Below, piece by piece: positions 38,206-49,046 of a stretch of 64,000 nt of DNA (position 1 is the first letter of the stretch; every line of letters begins with the position of its first letter). The notes below the pieces were generated by a model. It had not been told where the DNA came from. It did not search any database and saw only the letters and a list, made by a program, of their open reading frames with translations. A program made the position numbers and the translations under genes. This DNA comes from Chryseobacterium binzhouense. Its GTDB lineage: Bacteria > Bacteroidota > Bacteroidia > Flavobacteriales > Weeksellaceae. The stretch covers positions 124,001 through 188,000 of the forward strand of contig NZ_VKOG01000004.1 of assembly GCF_007474545.1 (NCBI RefSeq), given 5' to 3'.

Positions 38206-40302
38206 ATGAAAAAAATTCTACTATTTATTCTTTTTTGTGTTTCATCATCTTTTTTCGCTCAGGCAGATTGCTCTACTGCATTATCAGTCTGCGGAAATTC
38301 TACCATAACCTACAGTCCTTCCGGAATTGGAAACGTTAATGAATCGTTGGGAGGCTGTCTCACCAGTGGTGAACACAATTCGATCTGGTATAAACTTACC
38401 ATTGCTACAAGCGGAACACTGACGTTTGATCTCGTACCAACAGATCCAAATGCGGATTACGACTGGGCTATTTACGGACCCAATGCTTCCTGCGGAGCAC
38501 TCGGATCTCCCATTCGCTGTAACGCAGCAACAGTTATTGGAGTCGGCGCATCTACAGGACTGAATATGACCAGTACAATAACCAATGCAGCTGGAGGTTC
38601 GCTCACACCTTACTGCCAATATCTTGATGTGACTGCTGGACAAACCTATTACTTGTATATTGATAACTGGGTAGGTGCGGGAAGCTCAACTACAGCACCT
38701 TTTTCATTAACCTGGGGCGGAACCGCAACCTTAGCTTCACCGTTTACAAATCCTGCGCTTCAGCCCAATCCTTTTGTACCTCCAGGAGTTGCTGCAACAA
38801 ATCCTAATGATCCGAGAGAAATTCTTATCTGTGTAAGCCCTGCAGTTTTTAATTTCAATACACTTTCTACGGGAATTTTAAATTCAAATCCAAATTTTAC
38901 GATTTCGTATCATACTTCTCAAAATGATGCGCTGACAGGGGCAAACCCAATTACCACTCCGCAAACGGTAAATACAACTACAGTTTATTATTACAGTATT
39001 CATTATCAGGATCCTGCTAATCCCAATAATCCTCTTAATTCTTGCAGACAAATTGGTACATTTAAATTTAAACAAGGCAATATTGTTGCTAATGATGTAA
39101 CTATTTATGCCTGCAACAATAATCAAAGCGGACAGGCTACTTTTAATCTTACTACTGCCAATGTATTTTCCGGTACAAATGTGACGATTAAATATTATCC
39201 GTCTATGTCAGATCTTAATGCGGGAACTTCTCAGATCTCAAATCCGGCACAATATCTTTCTGCTCAAGGAACAATTTATGCCTTGGTAACTACCACAGAG
39301 GGATGTTCTGACTCCGCAGCGATTACCTTAAGTTTTTACCCCTCATTTGCAGTAAACGATACTACTTTAAGAGTTTGTACTTTAGATACCGAATCAAAAA
39401 CGGCATCTTTTAATCTTACCATCGCCAATGTAACATCACAATCGGGAACAACCAAAAAGTTTTATCCTTCTGTGACTGATGCTGTTAATCAAACCAATGA
39501 AATTTTAAATCCTCTAAATTTTATTGCGCCCAACTCATTCGTATACGTAAGAGTAACAGATAATAACGGATGTTATAATATTGCAAAAATTACTCTGGAA
39601 GTTATTCCACCGGTTTATTCTACCGTATTGAAAGATAAAACAATATGCATGGAAGACAGAACCACACTGGATGCAGGAGCAGGATTCAGCGGATACGAAT
39701 GGAGCACGGGAGCTACTACACAAACTATTTCGAATGTAGGAGTGGGAACTTATTGGGTAAAACTAAAAACAGGAGACTGTATTTCTATGCAGACGGTGAG
39801 AATTTATCCGGCTGAAAATCCTGTAATTACCAGTGTAAGTATTTCAAATACCACTGTTACCATCAATGTAAACGGAGGGACATCACCTTACCAATATTCA
39901 ATAGACAACATTAATTGGCAGGATTCTAATGTCTTTAGTAATCTGAAAAGAGGTGATCATAAAATTTATGTAAAAGACCTGTATGATTGTACTCCGATTG
40001 AAATTTCTATTGTTGTTCCTAATATCATCAATGTTATTACTCCAAACGGTGACGGATATAACGACTCAATAGATTATTCTGCATTAGCCAATAAGAAAAA
40101 TCTGGTTTTTGATGTATATGACAGATACGGAAATATGATTTTCCATGCTGATCAATCTAAAAATTATAAATGGGACGGAACTTCCGGAAACAAAAAAGTG
40201 CCTACCGGAAACTATTGGTTTTCTGTAACATGGAATGAAAATGATAAAAACAGTACCCTAATGAAATACTCCGGTTGGGTATTAGTAAAAAACAGAGAAT
40301 AA
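38206..40302 (+). CDS. T9SS-secreted surface protein with gliding-motility-associated C-terminal domain
   Basis: A 698-residue exported protein. Signal peptide MKKILLFILFCVSSSFFAQ; an N-terminal beta-sandwich with paired cysteines (DCSTALSVCG, SIWYKLTIATSGTLTFDLVP, YYLYIDNWVG), as in PPC-like adhesive domains; a middle of repeated Ig-like modules each ending in a disordered Thr/Asn-rich strand (ITLSFYP, ITLEVIP); and, from about 608, the type-B sorting domain INVITPNGDGYNDSIDY to KYSGWVLVKN (TIGR04131 type). This domain directs secretion through SprA with PorP/SprF-like helpers, so the protein is probably cell-surface bound. Ligand unknown. Confidence 0.93.
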   Translation: MKKILLFILFCVSSSFFAQADCSTALSVCGNSTITYSPSGIGNVNESLGGCLTSGEHNSIWYKLTIATSGTLTFDLVPTDPNADYDWAIYGPNASCGALGSPIRCNAATVIGVGASTGLNMTSTITNAAGGSLTPYCQYLDVTAGQTYYLYIDNWVGAGSSTTAPFSLTWGGTATLASPFTNPALQPNPFVPPGVAATNPNDPREILICVSPAVFNFNTLSTGILNSNPNFTISYHTSQNDALTGANPITTPQTVNTTTVYYYSIHYQDPANPNNPLNSCRQIGTFKFKQGNIVANDVTIYACNNNQSGQATFNLTTANVFSGTNVTIKYYPSMSDLNAGTSQISNPAQYLSAQGTIYALVTTTEGCSDSAAITLSFYPSFAVNDTTLRVCTLDTESKTASFNLTIANVTSQSGTTKKFYPSVTDAVNQTNEILNPLNFIAPNSFVYVRVTDNNGCYNIAKITLEVIPPVYSTVLKDKTICMEDRTTLDAGAGFSGYEWSTGATTQTISNVGVGTYWVKLKTGDCISMQTVRIYPAENPVITSVSISNTTVTINVNGGTSPYQYSIDNINWQDSNVFSNLKRGDHKIYVKDLYDCTPIEISIVVPNIINVITPNGDGYNDSIDYSALANKKNLVFDVYDRYGNMIFHADQSKNYKWDGTSGNKKVPTGNYWFSVTWNENDKNSTLMKYSGWVLVKNRE

Positions 40303-40370: not shown

Positions 40371-41384
40371 TTAATTTCTAAAAATTTTATTCTTTCCTGT
40401 TTTATACCTTGAAATATCTTTCAGAATAATCTCATCAGACGGATTAAAATATTTCAGCTCATTAACAATAGAAGAATTTTTATCTGCATTTTCAGCAATA
40501 ATCTCGTAAGCAATATCCCTCGTTACAGACTGAAGCTTATGATCTTTTTTAAACTCATGTTTCATCGCTTCCAGATAAGTCAGTTTCTTTTCTGCGGGAG
40601 TAACTTTATATAATTCCTGAATTTTATCATTCAACATATCCACATCATTAATATTCACAAAATAATTATTCAGGCAATTGAAGGCATCTTTACTTTCATT
40701 CCAGCCTTTCAAAAGAATTTCCTGTGCCTTTTCAGGCATTTCCATTTTTTTTCTATAAATAAGAGAGCCTTTCAACATTTGGTTATTATTCACATAATCA
40801 TCTACCACCATCTGATAATATGTATTGGCATTTTCCATATCATTCAGCTGCTTATACAAATCTCCTACTTTTTCTTTCTGCCCTAAATCTTTGTATAAAT
40901 CTATAGATTTATGAAACTGTTTTGCTTTTTCGTAGCAATAGGCAGCTTCAGATTTATTTTTTAGCTTTTTAAGATAAATAACTGCTGCCTCATTATATAA
41001 ACCGCCTTCTTCCAGCGTTTTTGCGCCCCGATAATTATCCTGAAGCAAATTCATATATACTTTTGCCGCACGGGTATATTCTTTTTCATCAATATATTTC
41101 TGCGCCAGTTCTTCATACTTATTTCTCAGTTTATCAAATAATGCTGATTCCAGATAAAAACTGCCATTGCCTGATCTTTTTCTTCCTGAAGAGTTTTTTT
41201 CTTTATCTTTTAAAGATGTTAAAACTAAAAAAACAATGAATGCAATTACGAGAAACAGCACTAAAGTTCCCACTACACTCCAGAAACTTTTGTGAAAAAG
41301 CTGCGCAAATATTCCGATCAGTTTGAAGATTGCCAGAATAAAAAATGCAGCCATAAATTTGTCTATATACTTCTGCTTATTCAT
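40371..41384 (-). CDS. Membrane-anchored TPR-like protein, last gene of the MoxR operon
   Basis: 337 residues. Two transmembrane helices at about 11-31 and 34-57 are followed by a basic linker and a series of helix pairs (YEELAQKYIDEKEYTRAAKVYMNLL is the first; then LYNEAAVIYLKKL, AAYCYEKAKQFHKSIDLY, VGDLYKQLNDMENANTYY) spaced like tetratricopeptide or Sel1-like repeats, about residues 90-205. It overlaps the preceding gene by 8 bases and is thus translationally coupled to the system. A scaffold role at the membrane is likely; the orientation predicts the repeats face the cytoplasm. I know no named family for it. Confidence 0.75.
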   Translation of the reverse strand: MNKQKYIDKFMAAFFILAIFKLIGIFAQLFHKSFWSVVGTLVLFLVIAFIVFLVLTSLKDKEKNSSGRKRSGNGSFYLESALFDKLRNKYEELAQKYIDEKEYTRAAKVYMNLLQDNYRGAKTLEEGGLYNEAAVIYLKKLKNKSEAAYCYEKAKQFHKSIDLYKDLGQKEKVGDLYKQLNDMENANTYYQMVVDDYVNNNQMLKGSLIYRKKMEMPEKAQEILLKGWNESKDAFNCLNNYFVNINDVDMLNDKIQELYKVTPAEKKLTYLEAMKHEFKKDHKLQSVTRDIAYEIIAENADKNSSIVNELKYFNPSDEIILKDISRYKTGKNKIFRN

Positions 41385-43032
41385 CTTTATCGGTATTTAA
41401 AATGGTTTTGTCTTCACTGAAAAGACGATAAAGCACCAGTATAACTGCAATCACGAGTATCCAGAACAGCCAGTTGTAGCCGAACATTTCTACCAAAGGA
41501 TAAAAAATATAAACCAGCATTGCCACAAGCAGAACCATAAGAAATACTTTCATTCCCTGAGAAAGATTATCACCTCCCAAATGAATCTGTTTCTTTTTAA
41601 AGAGCCTGAAATACAGCGCAATTCCTCCTGCTATCAAAACAATCAGTCCTAAAATTTCAGAAAGCGAAACGCTTTCAGGTTGATCATCTGACGACACATT
41701 ATTTCCTTCCAGATAAGACTGAGGATTTTCCGGAATCTCAGATACTGGCTCAATGGTTCCGTAAAATCTCCCCAGAGAATCTTCCATCATTTTTTGTTTT
41801 TTCGTAAGAACAGATTTAAATACGCCTTCATCTGCCTGATTTCCGGTGCCGGACTTTTTAAGTGAATCTAAAACTTCATCCTGAACTTTCTGCATTTTTC
41901 TGACAACAACTTCCTCTATTTTCAGGCTGTAAATTCCTTTCAGCGAATCTTTTGATTTTTTTTCGTCTTCCCGGTATTTTTGAATGTCTTTTTCTACTTC
42001 TTTCATTGATTTCCCACGGAAAGATTCAGATTGAGCCATTGTAAAATCATTCATCAGCTTTCCTCTCCTTTTTCTGTATAGAGAATCTATTTTTTGGTTG
42101 ATCTCTGTAACTCCCGATTTGAATGCTAAAATATTTTCGGCTTCTTTTTGACTTTCAACATTGCCAACAAATTTCTTCTCTCCGGCTTGATTTTCATCTT
42201 TATTAAGATAAAACCCGATTCTTGCTAAAGCCAGTACAATCAAAAACATCCAAAAAACCCAGCGGTATTTTTCTGAACCTGAACTTTTTGATGAATTGCT
42301 TTCTCCAAAAATTTTATTCCACCACGAATTTCCAAATCTGAATTTGCTGAAACCATCTCCTCTTGAAGTTCCCATAATATCAAGCGGAACGCCAAGTTCA
42401 ACTGCTCTGTCGGGATATTTTTCAATATATTTTAAATATTTTTCGATTTCTTTTTTGTTACCTGCCATCACTTTTTTCATGTCAAAAGGCAGGTTTTTCA
42501 TCCATTCTTCTTCAGTTTGCGGCTTTTCCAGTGACTCCAGAACTTTTTCGTCATCCATTTCAACCATAAAACTCCTGATTTCGGAAGGAATTCCCACTCC
42601 GTTCAAAGGTTTACGAATTGTCTCGGCTGATAATTCCGGATACTGAATGAGAGAAAGCCAGTCGATTTCTTCATTTAACTTCACCAAACCAAATTCGGGA
42701 TGCATGATGAGGTATTGCGCTTCAATATTCTGCCATTCTTCAGGATTTACTTTAGGATAAAAAATGGTGTTTTCCGGAATGAAAAATTTGTTTTCAACGC
42801 ATTGAACGTAAGAATTTTTTCCGATTTCATTCGGAGCCAGATTTTTGAAAACCAGGAAACATCCGTACAAAACATTCGGCTCATCTGAAGGAACCGGGAA
42901 TGAACGGACTTCATCCAGATCAATATTTAAAAGATCCATTTCCCGAAGCCATAAATACGGTGCAGAACCTTTGATTAAAAGTCCTCTTTTCGGATAAGAA
43001 TTTTTCGGAAAAGGTTTAATTCTAAATTCCAT
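41377..43032 (-). CDS. Membrane protein with bpX6-like N-terminal domain, MoxR operon
   Basis: 551 residues in two parts. The N-terminal 150 residues include GLLIKGSAPYLWLREMDLLNIDLDEVRSFPVPSD and VLYGCFLVFKN; this spacing of a Trp-Leu motif, a Leu-rich helix and a Gly-Cys strand recalls the bpX6-type domain of MoxR-vWA-beta-propeller systems, as I remember it. The C-terminal part has a transmembrane helix at about 257-276, a long charged coiled-coil region (295-425) probably in the periplasm, and three more helices at 457-477, 493-515 and 519-537. It overlaps both neighbours (11 and 8 bases). This membrane part would tether the system to the inner membrane. Confidence 0.7.
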   Translation of the reverse strand: MEFRIKPFPKNSYPKRGLLIKGSAPYLWLREMDLLNIDLDEVRSFPVPSDEPNVLYGCFLVFKNLAPNEIGKNSYVQCVENKFFIPENTIFYPKVNPEEWQNIEAQYLIMHPEFGLVKLNEEIDWLSLIQYPELSAETIRKPLNGVGIPSEIRSFMVEMDDEKVLESLEKPQTEEEWMKNLPFDMKKVMAGNKKEIEKYLKYIEKYPDRAVELGVPLDIMGTSRGDGFSKFRFGNSWWNKIFGESNSSKSSGSEKYRWVFWMFLIVLALARIGFYLNKDENQAGEKKFVGNVESQKEAENILAFKSGVTEINQKIDSLYRKRRGKLMNDFTMAQSESFRGKSMKEVEKDIQKYREDEKKSKDSLKGIYSLKIEEVVVRKMQKVQDEVLDSLKKSGTGNQADEGVFKSVLTKKQKMMEDSLGRFYGTIEPVSEIPENPQSYLEGNNVSSDDQPESVSLSEILGLIVLIAGGIALYFRLFKKKQIHLGGDNLSQGMKVFLMVLLVAMLVYIFYPLVEMFGYNWLFWILVIAVILVLYRLFSEDKTILNTDKDE

Positions 43033-45412
43033 AATCCAAAATTTGATCTATAAAAGGCGTTAGATATTCCTCATACATTTGCTCTGTTGTCTTCATTTTC
43101 AGCAGATTTTCCTGCGGAAGAAAATATTCTGAGCCTGAAAATTCAGTTTTGGTTCCGATTGCCAAATATCGTTGAATGGAAGTCGGGATGTAAAAAGCAG
43201 GAATGTTTTTGTTACTGCTATTGAAAGTCATCATTCCACGAGAGTCTGTGATAATTTCACTGCCTTCAGAAAAAGTAAATTTGTTCTTATTTTTTGTTGC
43301 GAATATTTCAACCTTTGATTTGTTTTTTGTTAAAATTAATGCTTCGTTGTAATCAGGTTCCAATGCATATTTAGATATAACCAAATCTTTTGTACCATTG
43401 ATTCCTATGAAATTAAAATTACTCAGAAGTTTATTAGAACCATATTGCAATCTTTCCAATTCCGTTTTTACTTTTGTGTTGCTTTTGGTTATTTCAGGAT
43501 CATTCTTTACCGATTCTAAAGATATCTGTCCGTCAATATTTATTTCAAAAATCCATGGTGAATCATCATTTCTCAGATAAAATTTTCTGTTGAAATAATT
43601 TACTTCAAAATTCAACGGAATTTTATGCTCAGATAAATTTAGTTCAGAATATTCTTTTGTATTCAGATTGAGTTTAGAAATCAGTTTTTTATCTGACTGA
43701 TACTGACATAAAATAAAATGCTGCTGTTTATTTTTTGCCAATGCAAACTGACCTCTCGGTTTTACCGAAATATTTTCGATCAAAACCTCACATCCACGAT
43801 GAATTCTATATTGGTCATAATATTCCCGATTGTAATAATTATCTGAAAGATAAGTTTTCAAAAGCTGTTTTTTAGCACTTAAAATGAAAAATTCACCTTC
43901 ATATAAAAATGCAGCAATCTTGTTTATTGGTATCGGAAACAAAATCGGGTAATTTATCGGAACATCAGTTGCTTTTAATCTTCTTCTATGCAAATTATCA
44001 CTTTTATGGGTCTTTTTCGGCGGATTTGCCCACAATTCCTGCAATGGCAGCATGATTTTCTGAATGTGTTTTCTCGTCCCTTTATGGTGCTTGTAAAAGT
44101 TCAATTCACCATTTGCGGAAGTCGTCACCAAAAATTTCAGACGGTCTCTGTTTTCATGAATAACTTTCTGAATTTTTTGATGATTTAAGTTCTCCTGATT
44201 AGTGATGAAAAATACTTCCAGATCGTTCTCTGTATGCTCTTCGCTAAAAAACTTTTCGAGTGTTTCTGAAACTTCCAGAACCGGACTTACATGATTTTGG
44301 TTTTCTATTACCTCTTCTACCCTGTTAAGAGAAATCGGGAAAATATCATTTCCTAATGCAAAAACTTTACATTCTGAATACGCTTTTGGATGCTTGATAA
44401 CTGCAATTGCCGATGCAAACGCCAAAACTTTTGGGGTTCCCCAGTTTTTCAGGGAAGTATCAATTAAAATAATTCTTTCAAAAATATTTTCTTCAGGTGG
44501 AATTTCCCTTTGAATAAACAACGCTTCATTGTTCGCAATACGGTTCATAAAAACCTCATCCTCATTGGCAAATTCTGACAAAAGCATTTTGTTGAAATCA
44601 CCCTTGTTGGTTATATCCGAGATTCCTCCAATCGGCTGTTCTCCCGGCGAAAGATGACGCATCGGAATTTTCAGACCGCTCCAGATTCTTTTAATTAAGC
44701 TTCCGATCTGAAATGTTTTCGGCTCTTCAATGAGTTCCTGAATAAAATCTTTATCAGTTTCAACGGTGGTTTCTTCTTCCACGACTTCATCTTCCAGTTC
44801 CGGAATATCAATAATGCCTTTCATTGCATTAATAATAGATTCTGTTGTTGGAAATTTACTATTTAAACTGTTCAAAACCCTTAAGTCTCTGGAAAATTTA
44901 GCAATCGTTATTTCGATTTTATTTGCCGAAGCACCTATTAAAAAAGGAGATTTTTTAAGTTCTGACAGAATTTCTTTAGAGGTACGAACGCTAATTGAAT
45001 TGAAATCATCAGTAAACAAAGTCTGAATTAATAAAATCCGGTTTTGTCCTTTTTTATAATTTGAAGGCAGATGATTGAGATTATTTAAAAATCTTACCGA
45101 AGGATCAATAAAATCTCCAATATACTTTACTGAGCTCTTGGGATTTTTCCTAAGCAAATTCTCAAGACTTATTAAATCAATATATCCCTCGTTTGTAGCA
45201 TAAAGAACCAACAAAAAAGGACTAAACAAAGGCAGCCCGTTCTCCAAAGTATTGAGAACTTCTATAATATAAGAACGATAGGCAATAACGCCAATATCAG
45301 GAATAGAGATGAGATTATTTTCGTTATATTCGCTATCATCCTGAATATCCTCATCGGTTGTCCATTCCCAAATAAAATCCTCGTACGACTGAAAATACTC
45401 TTTTACATCCAT
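43022..45412 (-). CDS. vWA-like/beta-rich (probable beta-propeller) fusion protein, MoxR operon
   Basis: 796 residues. An alpha-helical N-terminal part (1-200) is followed by an acidic linker (203-232), then HLSPGEQPIGGISDITNKG (253-271) and MLLSEFANEDEVFMNRI, a conserved block that precedes the vWA domain in related proteins. The vWA-like domain runs from about 312 to 460; its metal-ion motif is degenerate, Asp318-Thr-Ser320-Leu-Lys322, lacking the third Ser. The C-terminal 320 residues are beta-rich with repeated four-strand patterns, consistent with a beta-propeller. The client of the MoxR ATPase would be recognised or remodelled through this protein. It overlaps the genes on both sides by about 10 bases. 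Confidence 0.75.
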   Translation of the reverse strand: MDVKEYFQSYEDFIWEWTTDEDIQDDSEYNENNLISIPDIGVIAYRSYIIEVLNTLENGLPLFSPFLLVLYATNEGYIDLISLENLLRKNPKSSVKYIGDFIDPSVRFLNNLNHLPSNYKKGQNRILLIQTLFTDDFNSISVRTSKEILSELKKSPFLIGASANKIEITIAKFSRDLRVLNSLNSKFPTTESIINAMKGIIDIPELEDEVVEEETTVETDKDFIQELIEEPKTFQIGSLIKRIWSGLKIPMRHLSPGEQPIGGISDITNKGDFNKMLLSEFANEDEVFMNRIANNEALFIQREIPPEENIFERIILIDTSLKNWGTPKVLAFASAIAVIKHPKAYSECKVFALGNDIFPISLNRVEEVIENQNHVSPVLEVSETLEKFFSEEHTENDLEVFFITNQENLNHQKIQKVIHENRDRLKFLVTTSANGELNFYKHHKGTRKHIQKIMLPLQELWANPPKKTHKSDNLHRRRLKATDVPINYPILFPIPINKIAAFLYEGEFFILSAKKQLLKTYLSDNYYNREYYDQYRIHRGCEVLIENISVKPRGQFALAKNKQQHFILCQYQSDKKLISKLNLNTKEYSELNLSEHKIPLNFEVNYFNRKFYLRNDDSPWIFEINIDGQISLESVKNDPEITKSNTKVKTELERLQYGSNKLLSNFNFIGINGTKDLVISKYALEPDYNEALILTKNKSKVEIFATKNKNKFTFSEGSEIITDSRGMMTFNSSNKNIPAFYIPTSIQRYLAIGTKTEFSGSEYFLPQENLLKMKTTEQMYEEYLTPFIDQILDYGI

Positions 45413-46146
45413 TCCAAAGATTTTTCTGTTAAACGAAATGAACTTACAGATAACTTCCGGAAATCATCTTTATTAAGATGCAAAACATTTCCGCTTTCGT
45501 TCCATAAAAGCCATTTTTCATCACATTCATTGTACTTTTTCTGCAATAAAACACTCAGATTTTTAAATTCAAAATCAAAACCGGTTGGCAAAAAATGTCC
45601 GTCCTTCTCCCAAAATGTTTTTCCAGGGAAACTAAGTAATGGTATTCCGGTAAACAGTGCCTTATTTCCAACCACAATCCAGTTGATTTTTTCTAATTTA
45701 AATTTAGGCAAGGTTATCATTACATCCTTAATTTCAGCAATCGAACATAATAAAACCGTTGCAGGATGCTCTTCTTCGCTGGGTTTCAGTTTGACTTCAA
45801 TTTTTCCATCAATTCCAAAAAAATTATTGTTGGAAATAGGAAATTTTAGCCTTAAAGCTTTATCAATAGGAGTCCAGAGCAAAGCCGTTCTCATTTTTTT
45901 GCTTGGAACCAGAGCCTCTTTCCTGAATAAAAGTCCGTCTCTTAATTCATAAAGCAGAAAATTAGGCAACTGCTGAATTTCAGATGAAACAGCCTGTTCG
46001 TCGGTAAAACCTTTCAGCCAAACTACGTCTTCCTCCAAGGCAATCTGAACATTTTTCCAGTCACGGATGGAACCCAGAAAATCTTCATCTGCACGCGGAA
46101 TTTCTGCCCAGAACTCTTTTAGACTGTTTGAAGGATCTTTTGCCAT
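45403..46146 (-). CDS. Unknown protein between MoxR and vWA genes (bpX-type component)
   Basis: 247 residues, no signal peptide or membrane segment. It contains several Trp-centred strands (VQIALEEDVVWLKGF, EKINWIVVGNKALFTGIPL) and GKTFWEKDGHFLPTGFDFEF, suggesting a compact beta-rich domain. Small proteins of this kind stand between the ATPase and the vWA protein in MoxR-vWA-beta-propeller systems, where they were given bpX numbers; I cannot say which one this is. The gene overlaps the end of the MoxR gene by 28 bases and the vWA gene by 10. Confidence 0.65.
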   Translation of the reverse strand: MAKDPSNSLKEFWAEIPRADEDFLGSIRDWKNVQIALEEDVVWLKGFTDEQAVSSEIQQLPNFLLYELRDGLLFRKEALVPSKKMRTALLWTPIDKALRLKFPISNNNFFGIDGKIEVKLKPSEEEHPATVLLCSIAEIKDVMITLPKFKLEKINWIVVGNKALFTGIPLLSFPGKTFWEKDGHFLPTGFDFEFKNLSVLLQKKYNECDEKWLLWNESGNVLHLNKDDFRKLSVSSFRLTEKSLEWM

Positions 46147-47252
46147 AGACTTTCAATTTCCTGTTGAATGTACTGTTTCTGTTCAGGATTTCTGATCCAC
46201 TCGCATCGCGTCTGAAGATATCTTAGTTTATCTTTGATCACGTTCTGCTCTTCAAAACTTAAAGAACCCTGATTCCATCTTTCAATCAGGATTTTTACAT
46301 CTTTCATCACTTCTTCCGGATTCGGCGTTTTGTTTTGCATTGCCTGAGGATGAGATTTGGGGTTGTCATCTATTTCAATCGTTCTGTTGATGATGCCTTC
46401 TAAAATCTCAATCTGTTCTTCGGTATCCCAAATATGTTTCAGCACCCACAAATCTGACAAAATGGCTTCGTTTCTGCCACAAATTAAAGCACTTGCTGCG
46501 ATGAGGTTCTGTAATTTTACGGCTCTACGATCAGAAATAGCAATTCCTGTATTTCGGAGATTGATGATTGTATTTAAATATACTTCGTAAATCGGTCTCA
46601 GATCGACTGTTTTACACAAATTCTGAAGTTCTTTTATTTCGTGGGAGAGAATTTCCGGAGTTTCTGTTTCGGTATTGTTTTCCAGTTTTCTTCCGGCTAA
46701 AAGTACCTGCTGAAGAAGATCGGGATGAACATAATCTACATTAATTCTGATCAGAAAGCGGTCGAACAACGCGTTCAAGGCTTCATCTTCAGGAAGAACG
46801 TTGCTTGCTCCCACGAACATGAGCGCGGGAAGATGCTTGGTTTCTTTTCCTCTTTTAAAAATCTTTTCATTTAAAGCCATCAACAGGGAATTCAGAATGG
46901 CTGAATTAGCATTGAAGATTTCGTCCAGAAAAACCATGGATGCTTCGGGCATCATTCCTTCTGTGTTGGTTAATAATTCTCCTTCTTTTAATTTTCTGAT
47001 ATCAAAAGGACCGAAAATTTCGTTCGGCTCGGTAAAACGGGTTAATAAATATTCGAAATTTTTTCCGTCTTTTACTGTTTTTGCCAACGTTCTTACAATG
47101 GCAGATTTTGCGGTTCCGGGAGGTCCGTACAAAAATGCGTTTTCTCTTGCCAAAAGGCAGATTCCCAATAAATCGACGACGTCATTTTTTCCGACAAATG
47201 TATCTTTTACGAAGGCTAAAACCTTGTTTAATTTTTCTATATTTTGAGTCAT
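46119..47252 (-). CDS. MoxR/RavA-type AAA+ ATPase
   Basis: 377 residues from the ATG at 47252; the open frame extends 14 codons upstream into AT-rich sequence and is not used. Walker A is GPPGTAKS (43-50), Walker B MVFLDEIF (106-113), sensor 1 GASN (148-151) and the Arg finger LFDRF (162-166). The sequence TRFTEPNEIFGPFDI after Walker A and the C-terminal lid are like RavA. MoxR ATPases remodel proteins together with vWA-domain partners; here the partner is encoded two genes downstream. No sign of truncation. Confidence 0.93.
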   Translation of the reverse strand: MTQNIEKLNKVLAFVKDTFVGKNDVVDLLGICLLARENAFLYGPPGTAKSAIVRTLAKTVKDGKNFEYLLTRFTEPNEIFGPFDIRKLKEGELLTNTEGMMPEASMVFLDEIFNANSAILNSLLMALNEKIFKRGKETKHLPALMFVGASNVLPEDEALNALFDRFLIRINVDYVHPDLLQQVLLAGRKLENNTETETPEILSHEIKELQNLCKTVDLRPIYEVYLNTIINLRNTGIAISDRRAVKLQNLIAASALICGRNEAILSDLWVLKHIWDTEEQIEILEGIINRTIEIDDNPKSHPQAMQNKTPNPEEVMKDVKILIERWNQGSLSFEEQNVIKDKLRYLQTRCEWIRNPEQKQYIQQEIESLWQKILQTV

Positions 47253-47306
47253 TTGTTTTTTTATTGTAATTATTGACTTCTTTTTTAATTGCAACTGTTT
47301 TTTAAA

Positions 47307-47387
47307 CGCAAAGTCCGCAAAGTTTTTTTTGACTACTAACTGTTTTTAAGTTCGCTAAGGCGTTTCACTTAACTAAGTGAGCAAAGG
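47307..47387. repeat. Degenerate palindromic repeat between the unknown gene and moxR
   Basis: Left part: two direct copies of CGCAAAGT (47307-47314 and 47316-47323) followed by T8. Right part: GTTCGCTAAGGCG and a perfect palindrome TCACTTA-AC-TAAGTGA (47365-47380). The motifs CGCAAAG and TTCGCTAAGG recall a dispersed flavobacterial intergenic repeat I know from memory. It fills almost the whole gap between the two genes of the operon. Confidence 0.5.
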
Positions 47388-48026
47388 TTAGTTTTCTGTT
47401 GTTTTCAGTTCTTTCCAATAAATATCTTTATAAATGCCAAATTCCGCAATCAGTAATTGATTGATGTATGGAATTTCAGCAAGTTTATAATCTTTTTTCT
47501 CAACAATTCTTTCGAGATATAGTTTTCGGTAAGTTTTGTCTTTTAACTCTTCTTCCCAGTTGATTTCTTCAAGATCCAGATCACATCCAACCGCTGAATA
47601 GTGAAACTGTTTTAAAATATTTTCCAGCATTTTAATCAATGGATCTTCGGAATCTGCAACCTGTAATGCATCATAAATTTGCGGTAAAAATCTTAAAGTT
47701 AAATCTGCCGAAATAATTGCCGAAATATCTTTTTCACTCTGAAAATCTACAATTAATTTCTGCAAATCTTTTGTCGTATCTTTTCTTATAAGGTACAACT
47801 GTGCACTATGATAAACAACTTTTGCCGCCCAAATTGCTGCATTTTTGCTAAATGATATTGTATCTGCAAGAAAATTGAGTCTTTCTCTTTCAAATTCTGA
47901 TTGAAGATAATCTGCTGCATCCTGTTCTTCTTTTGCAGAAGTTTGGTGAAGATCTGAATAGACGATCAGTGAGCCGTCTTTTCTGAGTTGTAAAATTGTA
48001 TCTAAAAATGGAGATTTATTTTGCAT
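47388..48026 (-). CDS. Unknown helical protein, first gene of the MoxR operon
   Basis: 212 residues, predicted almost entirely helical, cytoplasmic and acidic near the C-terminus (GCDLDLEEINWEEELKDKTY). No domain recognised. It begins right behind a -7 box, with only about 7 bases between box and ATG. The gap to moxR is 135 bases and holds a repeat, so it may be loosely coupled with the rest. Its constant position in front of a MoxR gene, if found in other genomes, would make it a core part of the system. Confidence 0.7.
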   Translation of the reverse strand: MQNKSPFLDTILQLRKDGSLIVYSDLHQTSAKEEQDAADYLQSEFERERLNFLADTISFSKNAAIWAAKVVYHSAQLYLIRKDTTKDLQKLIVDFQSEKDISAIISADLTLRFLPQIYDALQVADSEDPLIKMLENILKQFHYSAVGCDLDLEEINWEEELKDKTYRKLYLERIVEKKDYKLAEIPYINQLLIAEFGIYKDIYWKELKTTEN

Positions 48027-48041: not shown

Positions 48042-48122
48042 AAATTTTTTCCGAATTATCTGAATTTTAACATGTTGATTTTATCATCTTTTAAAGATGT
48101 CTTTTGATGAAAAACCTGAATT

Positions 48123-48216
48123 CTAGCCCCGATTGCAGCGGCATCCTTTTTTGTGGCGGCGAAGTGAAACGGAGCCGCCGCAAAAAAGATACAGCGGAAA
48201 GCGGGAAAAAGCTCCT
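48123..48216. ncRNA. Structured intergenic element, possible RNA or palindromic repeat
   Basis: GC-rich island in AT-rich surroundings. The core is a 14-pair stem TTTTTTGTGGCGGC (48147-48160) with GCCGCCGCAAAAAA (48174-48187), loop 13 bases; the stem is extended by ATC/GAT across one bulged C. Outer arms AGCCCCG (48125-48131) and CGGG...AGCT (48202-48213) can close a second helix, and AGCGG occurs on both sides (48136-48140 and 48193-48197). I recall closely similar sequences scattered through Chryseobacterium and Flavobacterium genomes. It could be an RNA, a transcript-end structure or a mobile palindrome. It lies between divergent genes. Confidence 0.5.
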
Positions 48217-48335: not shown

Positions 48336-49046
48336 ATGAGCATTCACATCAGTGCCAAAAAAGGAGAAATCGCAAAAGTAGTTTTACAACCGGGAGATCC
48401 TTTAAGAGCAAAATATATCGCAGAAAATTTCCTTGAAAATGCAAAATTGGTCAGTCAGACAAGAGGCATTTTTTATTATACAGGAACTTATAAAGGCAAA
48501 GAAATTACCGTTGGTGCAAGCGGAATGGGTTTTCCAAGCATCGGAATTTATTCTTTTGAACTTTTTACGGAATACGAGGTAGATACAATCATCAGAATCG
48601 GAACCTGCGGCGGATATTCTAATGATGTGAAATTATTTGATCTCCTGAACGTGGAAAATGCAGCAAGCGAGAGTACGTATGCAAAATTTGCATGGGGATT
48701 TGAGGAAGATATCCTTTCACACCAGGGAAACATTTATGACATCATCAATGAGACTTCAAAAGAACTGGAATTAGCATCAAGACCTGTCAATATTCACAGC
48801 AGTGATATTTTTTACAGAAAAGATCCTGCCGTTCCTGAAATTGCTACAAAATACAACTGTCCTGCTGTAGAAATGGAAGCTTTCGGTTTGTTTGCCAATG
48901 CTAAACAATTAGGGAAAAATGCAGCGACTATTCTCACCGTTTCGGATATTATTCCTACTCATGAACAAATTTCTGCTGACGAAAGAGAAAGAGCTTTAAA
49001 ACCCATGATAGAATTAGCTCTGGAATCTGCATTAAAGGTAATTTAA
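48336..49046 (+). CDS. deoD: Purine-nucleoside phosphorylase (DeoD type)
   Basis: Cleaves purine nucleosides with phosphate to base and ribose-1-phosphate in salvage. Features of the hexameric PNP/UP family: QPGDPLRAKYIAENF near the start, the phosphate-site loop VGASGMGFPSIGIYSFELF, RIGTCGGYSNDVKLFD, the ribose-binding CPAVEMEAFGLF and the catalytic Asp in TVSDIIPTHE. 236 residues is usual. Single gene with its own -7 box and terminator. Confidence 0.95.
   Translation: MSIHISAKKGEIAKVVLQPGDPLRAKYIAENFLENAKLVSQTRGIFYYTGTYKGKEITVGASGMGFPSIGIYSFELFTEYEVDTIIRIGTCGGYSNDVKLFDLLNVENAASESTYAKFAWGFEEDILSHQGNIYDIINETSKELELASRPVNIHSSDIFYRKDPAVPEIATKYNCPAVEMEAFGLFANAKQLGKNAATILTVSDIIPTHEQISADERERALKPMIELALESALKVI

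Follow-up and report, generated by a model that had tools for sequence, protein, structure and literature searches.

Beta-propeller-containing MoxR-vWA ternary systems form subsystem 4 in the main text of Kaur et al. 2020 (PMC7159879). Pfam lists bpMoxR and bpX0–bpX4 as the domains of these systems, and the main text of Kaur et al. never uses the term "bpX." Here we analyzed such an operon from Chryseobacterium binzhouense, located at positions 40371–48026 of a 64,000-nucleotide stretch of contig NZ_VKOG01000004.1 (the window, to whose positions coordinates refer unless a locus is named), where the list of open reading frames (ORFs) gave six genes, all on the minus strand. As set out in that main text, the described systems have in common with this operon a GXXXTAKS P-loop, a divergent vWA domain, and additional helical and mixed proteins. 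Behind the vWA domain, the described systems have a beta-propeller of about four blades, at which place this operon encodes a beta-rich, propeller-like part. Their third component carries a membrane segment, TPRs, and typically a propeller, whereas here this component is split and its TPR half is too short to accommodate a propeller. Since five of the six proteins match the Pfam families of these systems, the P-loop is as published, and vWA and propeller-like folds were recognized, the assignment of the operon to this class is near certain.

RavA-ViaA of Escherichia coli also consists of a MoxR ATPase and a vWA partner and, according to the relevant passage (PMC9489729), interacts with the inner membrane. 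RavA is the closest PDB relative of the window MoxR protein (4.4e-43), but the latter scored 190.5 bits on the RavA equivalog model NCBIfam NF010054, far below its cut-off of 681. To our knowledge, RavA-ViaA has no counterparts of bpX2–bpX4 or of the TPR protein.

Altae-Tran et al. 2023 (PMC10910872) described tRNA gene arrays accompanied by RNase H and a Pol III epsilon-like exonuclease, in a passage that names no MoxR, bpX, RNA ligase, or Ro60; these arrays could be the same loci as those described below. The Anabaena trn operon of 26 tRNAs likewise presents a second tRNA set in an array, is used under translation stress, and shares its repression with rtcB, an RNA ligase gene; in contrast to the arrays found here, it is located on a megaplasmid under TrcR control, and the passages concerned mention no MoxR-vWA operon (PMC10272220). 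The rtcBA-Ro60-Y RNA repair operons, activated by damaged tRNA according to the passage describing them (PMC7790460), also combine an RNA ligase with Ro60. The ligases found here, unlike theirs, are of the T4 Rnl2 and RLIG1 types (RtcB was not searched for), and no Y RNA was detected at gathering score in the sources scanned. Ro60, RNA ligase, R2K, and RtcB go unmentioned in the main text of Kaur et al., where "RNA repair" occurs only within a reference title. No paper tying bpX operons to tRNA arrays with RNA ligases and Ro60 was found in the literature search; supplements lay outside it, and a prior mention is possible. As far as we found, the kind of system and the tRNA arrays with RNase H and exonuclease were already known, and the tie of the bpX operon to tRNA arrays, RNA ligases, and Ro60 is new.

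Linkage of the operon to tRNA arrays and RNA-repair genes

The operon is linked, recurrently and on the same strand, to tRNA and RNA-processing genes in two bacterial families. In Chryseobacterium and its near kin, the linkage was examined in the best 80 of 96 relatives found (the named loci), nearly all of them from Chryseobacterium or Epilithonimonas. With 3 kb or more of sequence following the TPR gene, 73 of these loci were eligible for counting tRNA genes; L051 and L122 had no TPR gene, and L053, L077, L084, L089, and L120 were too short (2, 0, 8, 0, and 2 tRNAs, respectively). In 67 of the 73 eligible loci, the TPR gene is followed by 5–18 same-strand tRNA genes (the rule being at least 5 within 5 kb), the first of which lies 740–2645 bp past it. 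The Rfam tRNA model confirmed many of these tRNAs in the loci scanned.

The genes past the array, each recognized in one or a few loci, encode RNase_T exonucleases, cREC, R2K ATP-grasp, metallophosphoesterase, Band_7, and SWIM proteins as well as T4 Rnl2-type and RLIG1-type RNA ligases; Ro60 follows. An RNase H-like protein (PF04308 in the one member scanned) is also encoded past the array, its ORF cluster being present in 61 of the 80 loci. Ro60 (TROVE) was found in 86 of the 119 genomes of the window's genus, namely in 85 of 109 with bpX2 versus 1 of 10 without it (Fisher p 3e-5, kinship ignored). Its position was usable in 83 genomes, including 82 with bpX2; in 74 of the latter, Ro60 is encoded on the strand of bpX2, 13.6–34.9 kb downstream of it, and the other 8 carry it on another contig. 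As a control, we inspected 20-kb stretches around two other MoxR genes in each of ten genomes of the genus, and none of the 20 contained a tRNA or a reference repair gene, although nine of these genomes lack bpX2 and the control is imperfectly matched.

The linkage recurs in the second family, which belongs to the same order, in a genus (g2) that is probably Flavobacterium. When distances of up to 10 kb (tRNAs) and 12 kb (proteins) were considered, 16 of the 22 second-family loci had two or more same-strand tRNAs and none had opposite-strand ones; an RNA ligase was encoded in 14 and an RNase_T exonuclease in 18. At least one of the ligase, RNase_T, a 261-aa protein, and Ro60 is present in 20/22 loci, or in 19/22 without the 261-aa protein, which is conserved and matches no Pfam family. 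The usual order, on one strand, is tRNAs, RLIG1-type ligase, 261-aa protein, 365-aa protein (a Band_7 protein in the single case scanned), exonuclease, and operon; the order in genome G1154 is operon, tRNAs, Rnl2, 365-aa protein, and exonuclease. Among 76 comparable same-strand g2 tRNAs, 50 are closer to the array tRNAs, 10 to ordinary tRNAs, and 16 tie.

Features of the array tRNAs

For comparison with ordinary tRNAs, only those of the window genome (35 distinct) were used. The array tRNAs of this genome are 57–69% identical to the best ordinary tRNA with the same anticodon. Across the named loci, 866 tRNAs lie downstream of the operon, and their anticodon loops are the same as in ordinary tRNAs or differ by a few bases. 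The stem pair 31–39 is T-A in array tRNAs for His (59/62), Phe (50/59), Asn (44/48), Lys (50/51), and Arg(tct) (52/52), whereas the ordinary counterparts have A-T (His, Phe, Asn, and Lys) or C-G (Arg). This change is not universal, since array tRNAs for Tyr, Leu(tag), and Gln(ttg) mostly retain A-T at this pair, and for Cys and Trp both sets have T-A.

The arrays comprise about 14 common isoacceptors, and the downstream count in the named loci included no Gly, Ala, or Val tRNAs. The spacers are bimodal in length, with 301 of 796 shorter than 20 nt and 276 of 60–119 nt. Their interpretation as hidden degenerate tRNAs was not supported: a permissive Rfam scan of one array gave a single weak tRNA-Sec-like match in a spacer, and the sub-threshold YrlA matches of the same scan overlap real tRNAs. 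Phage tRNAs have been proposed to evade tRNases, as stated in the passage of van den Berg et al. (PMC10264068), and by analogy we hypothesize that the array tRNAs could resist anticodon nucleases.

A second, smaller cluster of odd tRNAs was observed upstream of bpX4 (L044:728-1349, L070:2902-5617, and similar), with Gly, Ala, Val, Leu, Ser, SeC-like, or unassigned anticodons. Some second-family loci have a similar cluster next to a DUF434 gene and a gene for a 455-aa short-chain-dehydrogenase-like protein.

Gene content of the operon

Four overlaps chain five of the genes: 8 nt between 40371–41384 and 41377–43032, 11 nt between the latter and 43022–45412, 10 nt between 43022–45412 and 45403–46146, and 28 nt between 45403–46146 and 46119–47294. 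The bpX4 gene (47388–48026) stands separately. The original prediction, made from the letters of the window, of six minus-strand genes with characteristic motifs and membrane helices is thus confirmed. Its assignment of the genes to a MoxR-vWA-beta-propeller system also holds, with five of the six proteins matching system-specific Pfam models at E-values from 3.6e-21 to 5.3e-99; because of these matches, the grouping is more than chance. The vWA and 247-residue proteins, for which this profile check had been proposed, match bpX0/bpX1 and bpX2, respectively.

The first gene of the operon encodes a 212-aa bpX4 protein (PF19920, 7.7e-63), previously seen as a helical protein of no family. The MoxR ORF listed for the window begins at TTG and reaches 47294. 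However, the MoxR frames of relatives, for which ATG starts yielding 360–400 aa were taken, are 376–382 aa long, and the true start is therefore more likely the ATG giving a 377-aa protein (46119–47252); this leaves a gap of 135 nt to the bpX4 gene. The 377-aa protein is a bpMoxR AAA+ ATPase (PF20030, 5.3e-99; AAA_lid_8, 1.9e-12) with Walker A GPPGTAKS at residue 43, which fits the GXXXTAKS P-loop of the family, Walker B VFLDEIF at residue 107, and LFDRF at residue 162. The next gene (45403–46146) encodes the 247-aa bpX2 protein (PF19918, 3.7e-69), the Trp-rich beta protein of the original prediction. Two weak PDB-sequence rows relating bpX2 to eIF4E (0.54–0.65) were treated as chance.

The 796-aa co-chaperone (43022–45412) contains bpX0 (residues 42–195, 1.2e-30), a conserved linker with the GGISDITNKG motif, vWA-like and propeller-like parts, and bpX1 (residues 709–791, 3.6e-21); bpX0 and bpX1, which correspond to the long helical N-terminal and beta-rich C-terminal regions of the vWA component in these systems, were both present in all 50 orthologues scanned. 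Structure comparison revealed a vWA-like fold at residues ~308–455 and a beta-rich propeller-like part at residues ~498–759. A structural alignment that re-examined the Foldseek list gave middling Z, and the TcdA1 chains among its top rows were taken only as a beta-rich arrangement. The vWA profile had no match among PDB sequences.

The last two genes encode the membrane part of the system. The 551-aa protein (41377–43032) has a bpX3 domain at residues 2–170 (PF19919, 2.3e-44), for which the bpX6-like label of the original prediction is wrong, and four predicted membrane segments. In the 337-aa protein (40371–41384), two predicted membrane segments are followed by a TPR-like region, for which the TPR_6 match (2.2e-4) scored 22.1 bits, below the curated cut-off of 26.3. 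A simple hydropathy scan found no membrane segments in the other four proteins. Fusions of bpX3 and TPR were found in three of the four g2 loci first examined (594, 569, and 585 aa), the fourth having two genes. A plasmid of Hymenobacter yonginensis encodes a single 959-aa protein with bpX3 and then a TPR-like region, to residues 386–632 of which residues 89–329 of the 337-aa protein align. Because they are fused in relatives, we take the 551-aa and 337-aa proteins to be the two parts into which the third component described by Kaur et al. is split in this operon. In the Hymenobacter protein, a C-terminal region comes after the TPR-like one, and the 337-aa protein lacks the length for it; membrane segments and the TPR-like region are distributed over two genes, with no room for a propeller in the 337-aa protein. 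The membrane branch of the original prediction is therefore present as membrane segments, but it belongs to the known third component and is not an addition to it.

Distribution and conservation

The six genes occur in the same order in 77 of the 80 named loci, so that the predicted linkage in relatives was observed. Of the three remaining loci, L051 and L122 are cut by contig ends, and L114 has no intact MoxR frame: in this locus bpX4 and bpX2 are present, and no intact MoxR frame was found upstream of bpX2. In the window's genus, bpX2 was found in 109 of 119 genomes, as a single copy in 108. In G304, a 75% complete genome, it is in three pieces with stop codons (G304:C1:1441602-1442276), which may reflect an assembly error or decay. 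The ten genomes of the genus without bpX2 had two weaker MoxR matches each and no close bpMoxR. Elsewhere, bpX2 was found in 10 of 100 genomes in the family sample, 43 of 395 in the order sample, and 3 of 148 in the phylum sample; in genus g2, it was present in 19 of 299 genomes. A bpX2 pattern scan of viral contigs revealed no relative, and comparison of the vWA protein with 72,556 plasmid records gave one match, the Hymenobacter plasmid.

Mean pairwise identity in the named loci decreases from MoxR (0.92) through TPR (0.75), bpX2 (0.73), bpX4 (0.72), and vWA (0.68) to bpX3 (0.60), with 0.90 for the neighboring deoD-like gene. The variability of bpX3 is concentrated mainly in residues 226–475, and residues 176–225 are well conserved.

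Variable slot and flanking genes

The gap between bpX4 and MoxR genes exceeds 300 bp in 28 of 78 loci; in L046 it contains no ORF of at least 40 aa. The inserts are mostly a DUF4919 protein (three scanned, 32–36 bits against a cut-off of 29; ORF cluster in 19 loci) and/or a 232–238-aa membrane protein without a family assignment (ORF cluster in 14 loci). Both are present twice at L044:5155-8171, and the same pair occupies the same slot in g2 genome G1154 (41% and 23% identity). A by-eye likeness of the membrane insert to a site-2-protease relic is not claimed here as a relationship: the four proteins scanned had no Pfam match above chance, and HExxH is missing among the invariant residues.

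In the window, the operon adjoins the deoD-like gene at 48336–49046; such a gene lies near the operon in 62 of the 80 named loci. Between bpX4 and this gene, a Flavo-1 RNA (Rfam RF01705, 73 bits) was found at 48121–48212 on the plus strand. It was rejected as part of the operon, being present in one of seven further named loci scanned and located elsewhere in L138. On the other side, a 698-aa secreted-looking protein (38206–40302, plus strand) is convergent with the operon. By eye, its end looks similar to a sorting domain of the type IX secretion system (T9SS)/gliding type.

Directly upstream of bpX4 in L232 (L232:11500-12003), an Endonuclease V-like protein is encoded (PF04493, 1.1e-12), and 167-aa proteins near bpX4 in L234 and L136 look similar to it, by look alone. 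Proteins with DUF6493, DUF7824, or DUF7825, one of them with WGR, adjoin the operon or sit in the island (L166:1098-7670, L234:2723-7167, and L135:14066-15943) and are twice paired with a SWIM-type protein.

Possible role of the operon and alternative explanations

With moderate confidence, we interpret the operon as encoding a membrane-tethered MoxR-vWA-bpX remodelling machine that shares a stress response with the tRNA-damage island. The role proposed here is our inference from the homologs and neighbors of the six genes. By comparison with RavA, the MoxR subunits would form an ATPase ring, and the vWA-propeller co-chaperone, together with bpX2 and bpX4, may bind a client, on which the ring would act via the vWA protein, as in RavA, midasin, and other MoxR-vWA pairs. 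The predicted membrane segments suggest that the bpX3/TPR component tethers the assembly to the inner membrane, and the neighboring genes point to tRNA damage as the occasion. The partner island would supply the second-set tRNA array, RNA ligases, 3'-5' exonucleases, RNase H-like protein, and Ro60. The machine would most likely remodel or disarm a protein at the membrane, with translation meanwhile being restored by spare tRNAs and ligases following an attack by an anticodon nuclease or the like. More specifically, and only tentatively, MoxR-vWA-bpX may be the membrane ATPase arm of a tRNA-loss survival system, co-inherited with the array, ligases, exonucleases, and Ro60, and may act at the inner membrane, against tRNA-cleaving proteins or stalled complexes, with the array meanwhile replenishing the tRNA pool.

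Several observations weigh against this interpretation. In the window genome, the operon is on contig C11, whereas 12 ARAGORN tRNAs, the RNase H-like protein, R2K, cREC, Rnl2, RNase_T, and Ro60 are together on contig C9; because of this separation, the original prediction could not take the RNA-repair neighbors into account. The named locus most similar to the window, L043, has no tRNA in its 20 kb, and six of the 73 eligible named loci have zero array tRNAs. Genome G251 contains the array and Ro60 without bpX2, and deoD adjoins the array there with no intervening operon; therefore, the array does not need the operon. We read these cases as a break between the TPR gene and the array in the window lineage and, in G251, as en bloc loss of the operon, and together they weaken the claim that the operon must adjoin the array to act. 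Six of the 22 second-family loci miss the tRNA rule: G1077 has nothing, G1094 no tRNA, G1121 Ro60 only, G981 one tRNA, G538 one tRNA with SWIM/WGR-type genes, and G900 five tRNAs just beyond the rule distance. G494 passes the rule, but its three tRNAs are closer to ordinary ones, making it a weak member. The Hymenobacter plasmid copy and G176 show no markers at all, and G216, from the window's family, has only an R2K ATP-grasp gene, directly upstream. Finally, because loci of one genus are not independent of each other, a few ancestral events or transfer may account for the linkage.

The operon might alternatively be a housekeeping chaperone serving one membrane complex in the manner of RavA-ViaA or NorQD, its tRNA and RNA-repair neighbors being old synteny. 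The similarity of MoxR to RavA, its conservation at the level of the deoD-like gene, the frequent proximity of deoD itself, and the separation of operon and array in the window genome are all consistent with this. However, the linkage recurs in the second family, where operon and tRNAs usually come in the reverse order and none of the 22 loci has opposite-strand tRNAs within 10 kb; it persists despite the variable distance to Ro60; and other MoxR loci have no such neighbors. We regard the synteny explanation as somewhat doubtful.

An anti-invader conflict system, as proposed for this family by Kaur et al., seems unlikely; the original prediction had mentioned conflict or remodelling as the proposed roles of such systems. 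Under this hypothesis, the bpX3-membrane part would be a variable effector freed by MoxR-vWA upon infection, in line with bpX3 being the most variable component and with the inserts, mostly DUF4919 and/or the membrane protein, in the bpX4-MoxR slot. Nevertheless, PADLOC models run against the six proteins matched no system beyond two weak hits of MoxR to ATPase models (0.002 and 0.0046), no effector was found, the bpX3 variability is mainly confined to one region next to a well-conserved one, the viral contigs contained no bpX2-pattern relative, and the operon is a stable, single-copy trait of the genus. The latter two observations also argue against a mobile-element relic, in which arrays would have provided nuclease-resistant tRNAs and the MoxR-vWA pair would once have served particle assembly. 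In the passages found, tail assembly of an archaeal virus requires a MoxR-vWA pair, and a role in jumbo-phage virion assembly is proposed; the proposed evasion of tRNases by phage tRNAs and the one known plasmid copy fit such an origin as well. Yet no phage structural family was detected among 40 flanking proteins scanned, and we consider a relic very improbable.

The ternary systems are known from comparative genomics, and we found no job assigned to them; the tie to tRNA and RNA-repair genes offers a first testable function. If the shared stress response is real, it would link AAA+ membrane remodelling to tRNA damage and might account for the retention of a second, divergent tRNA gene set in some bacteria.

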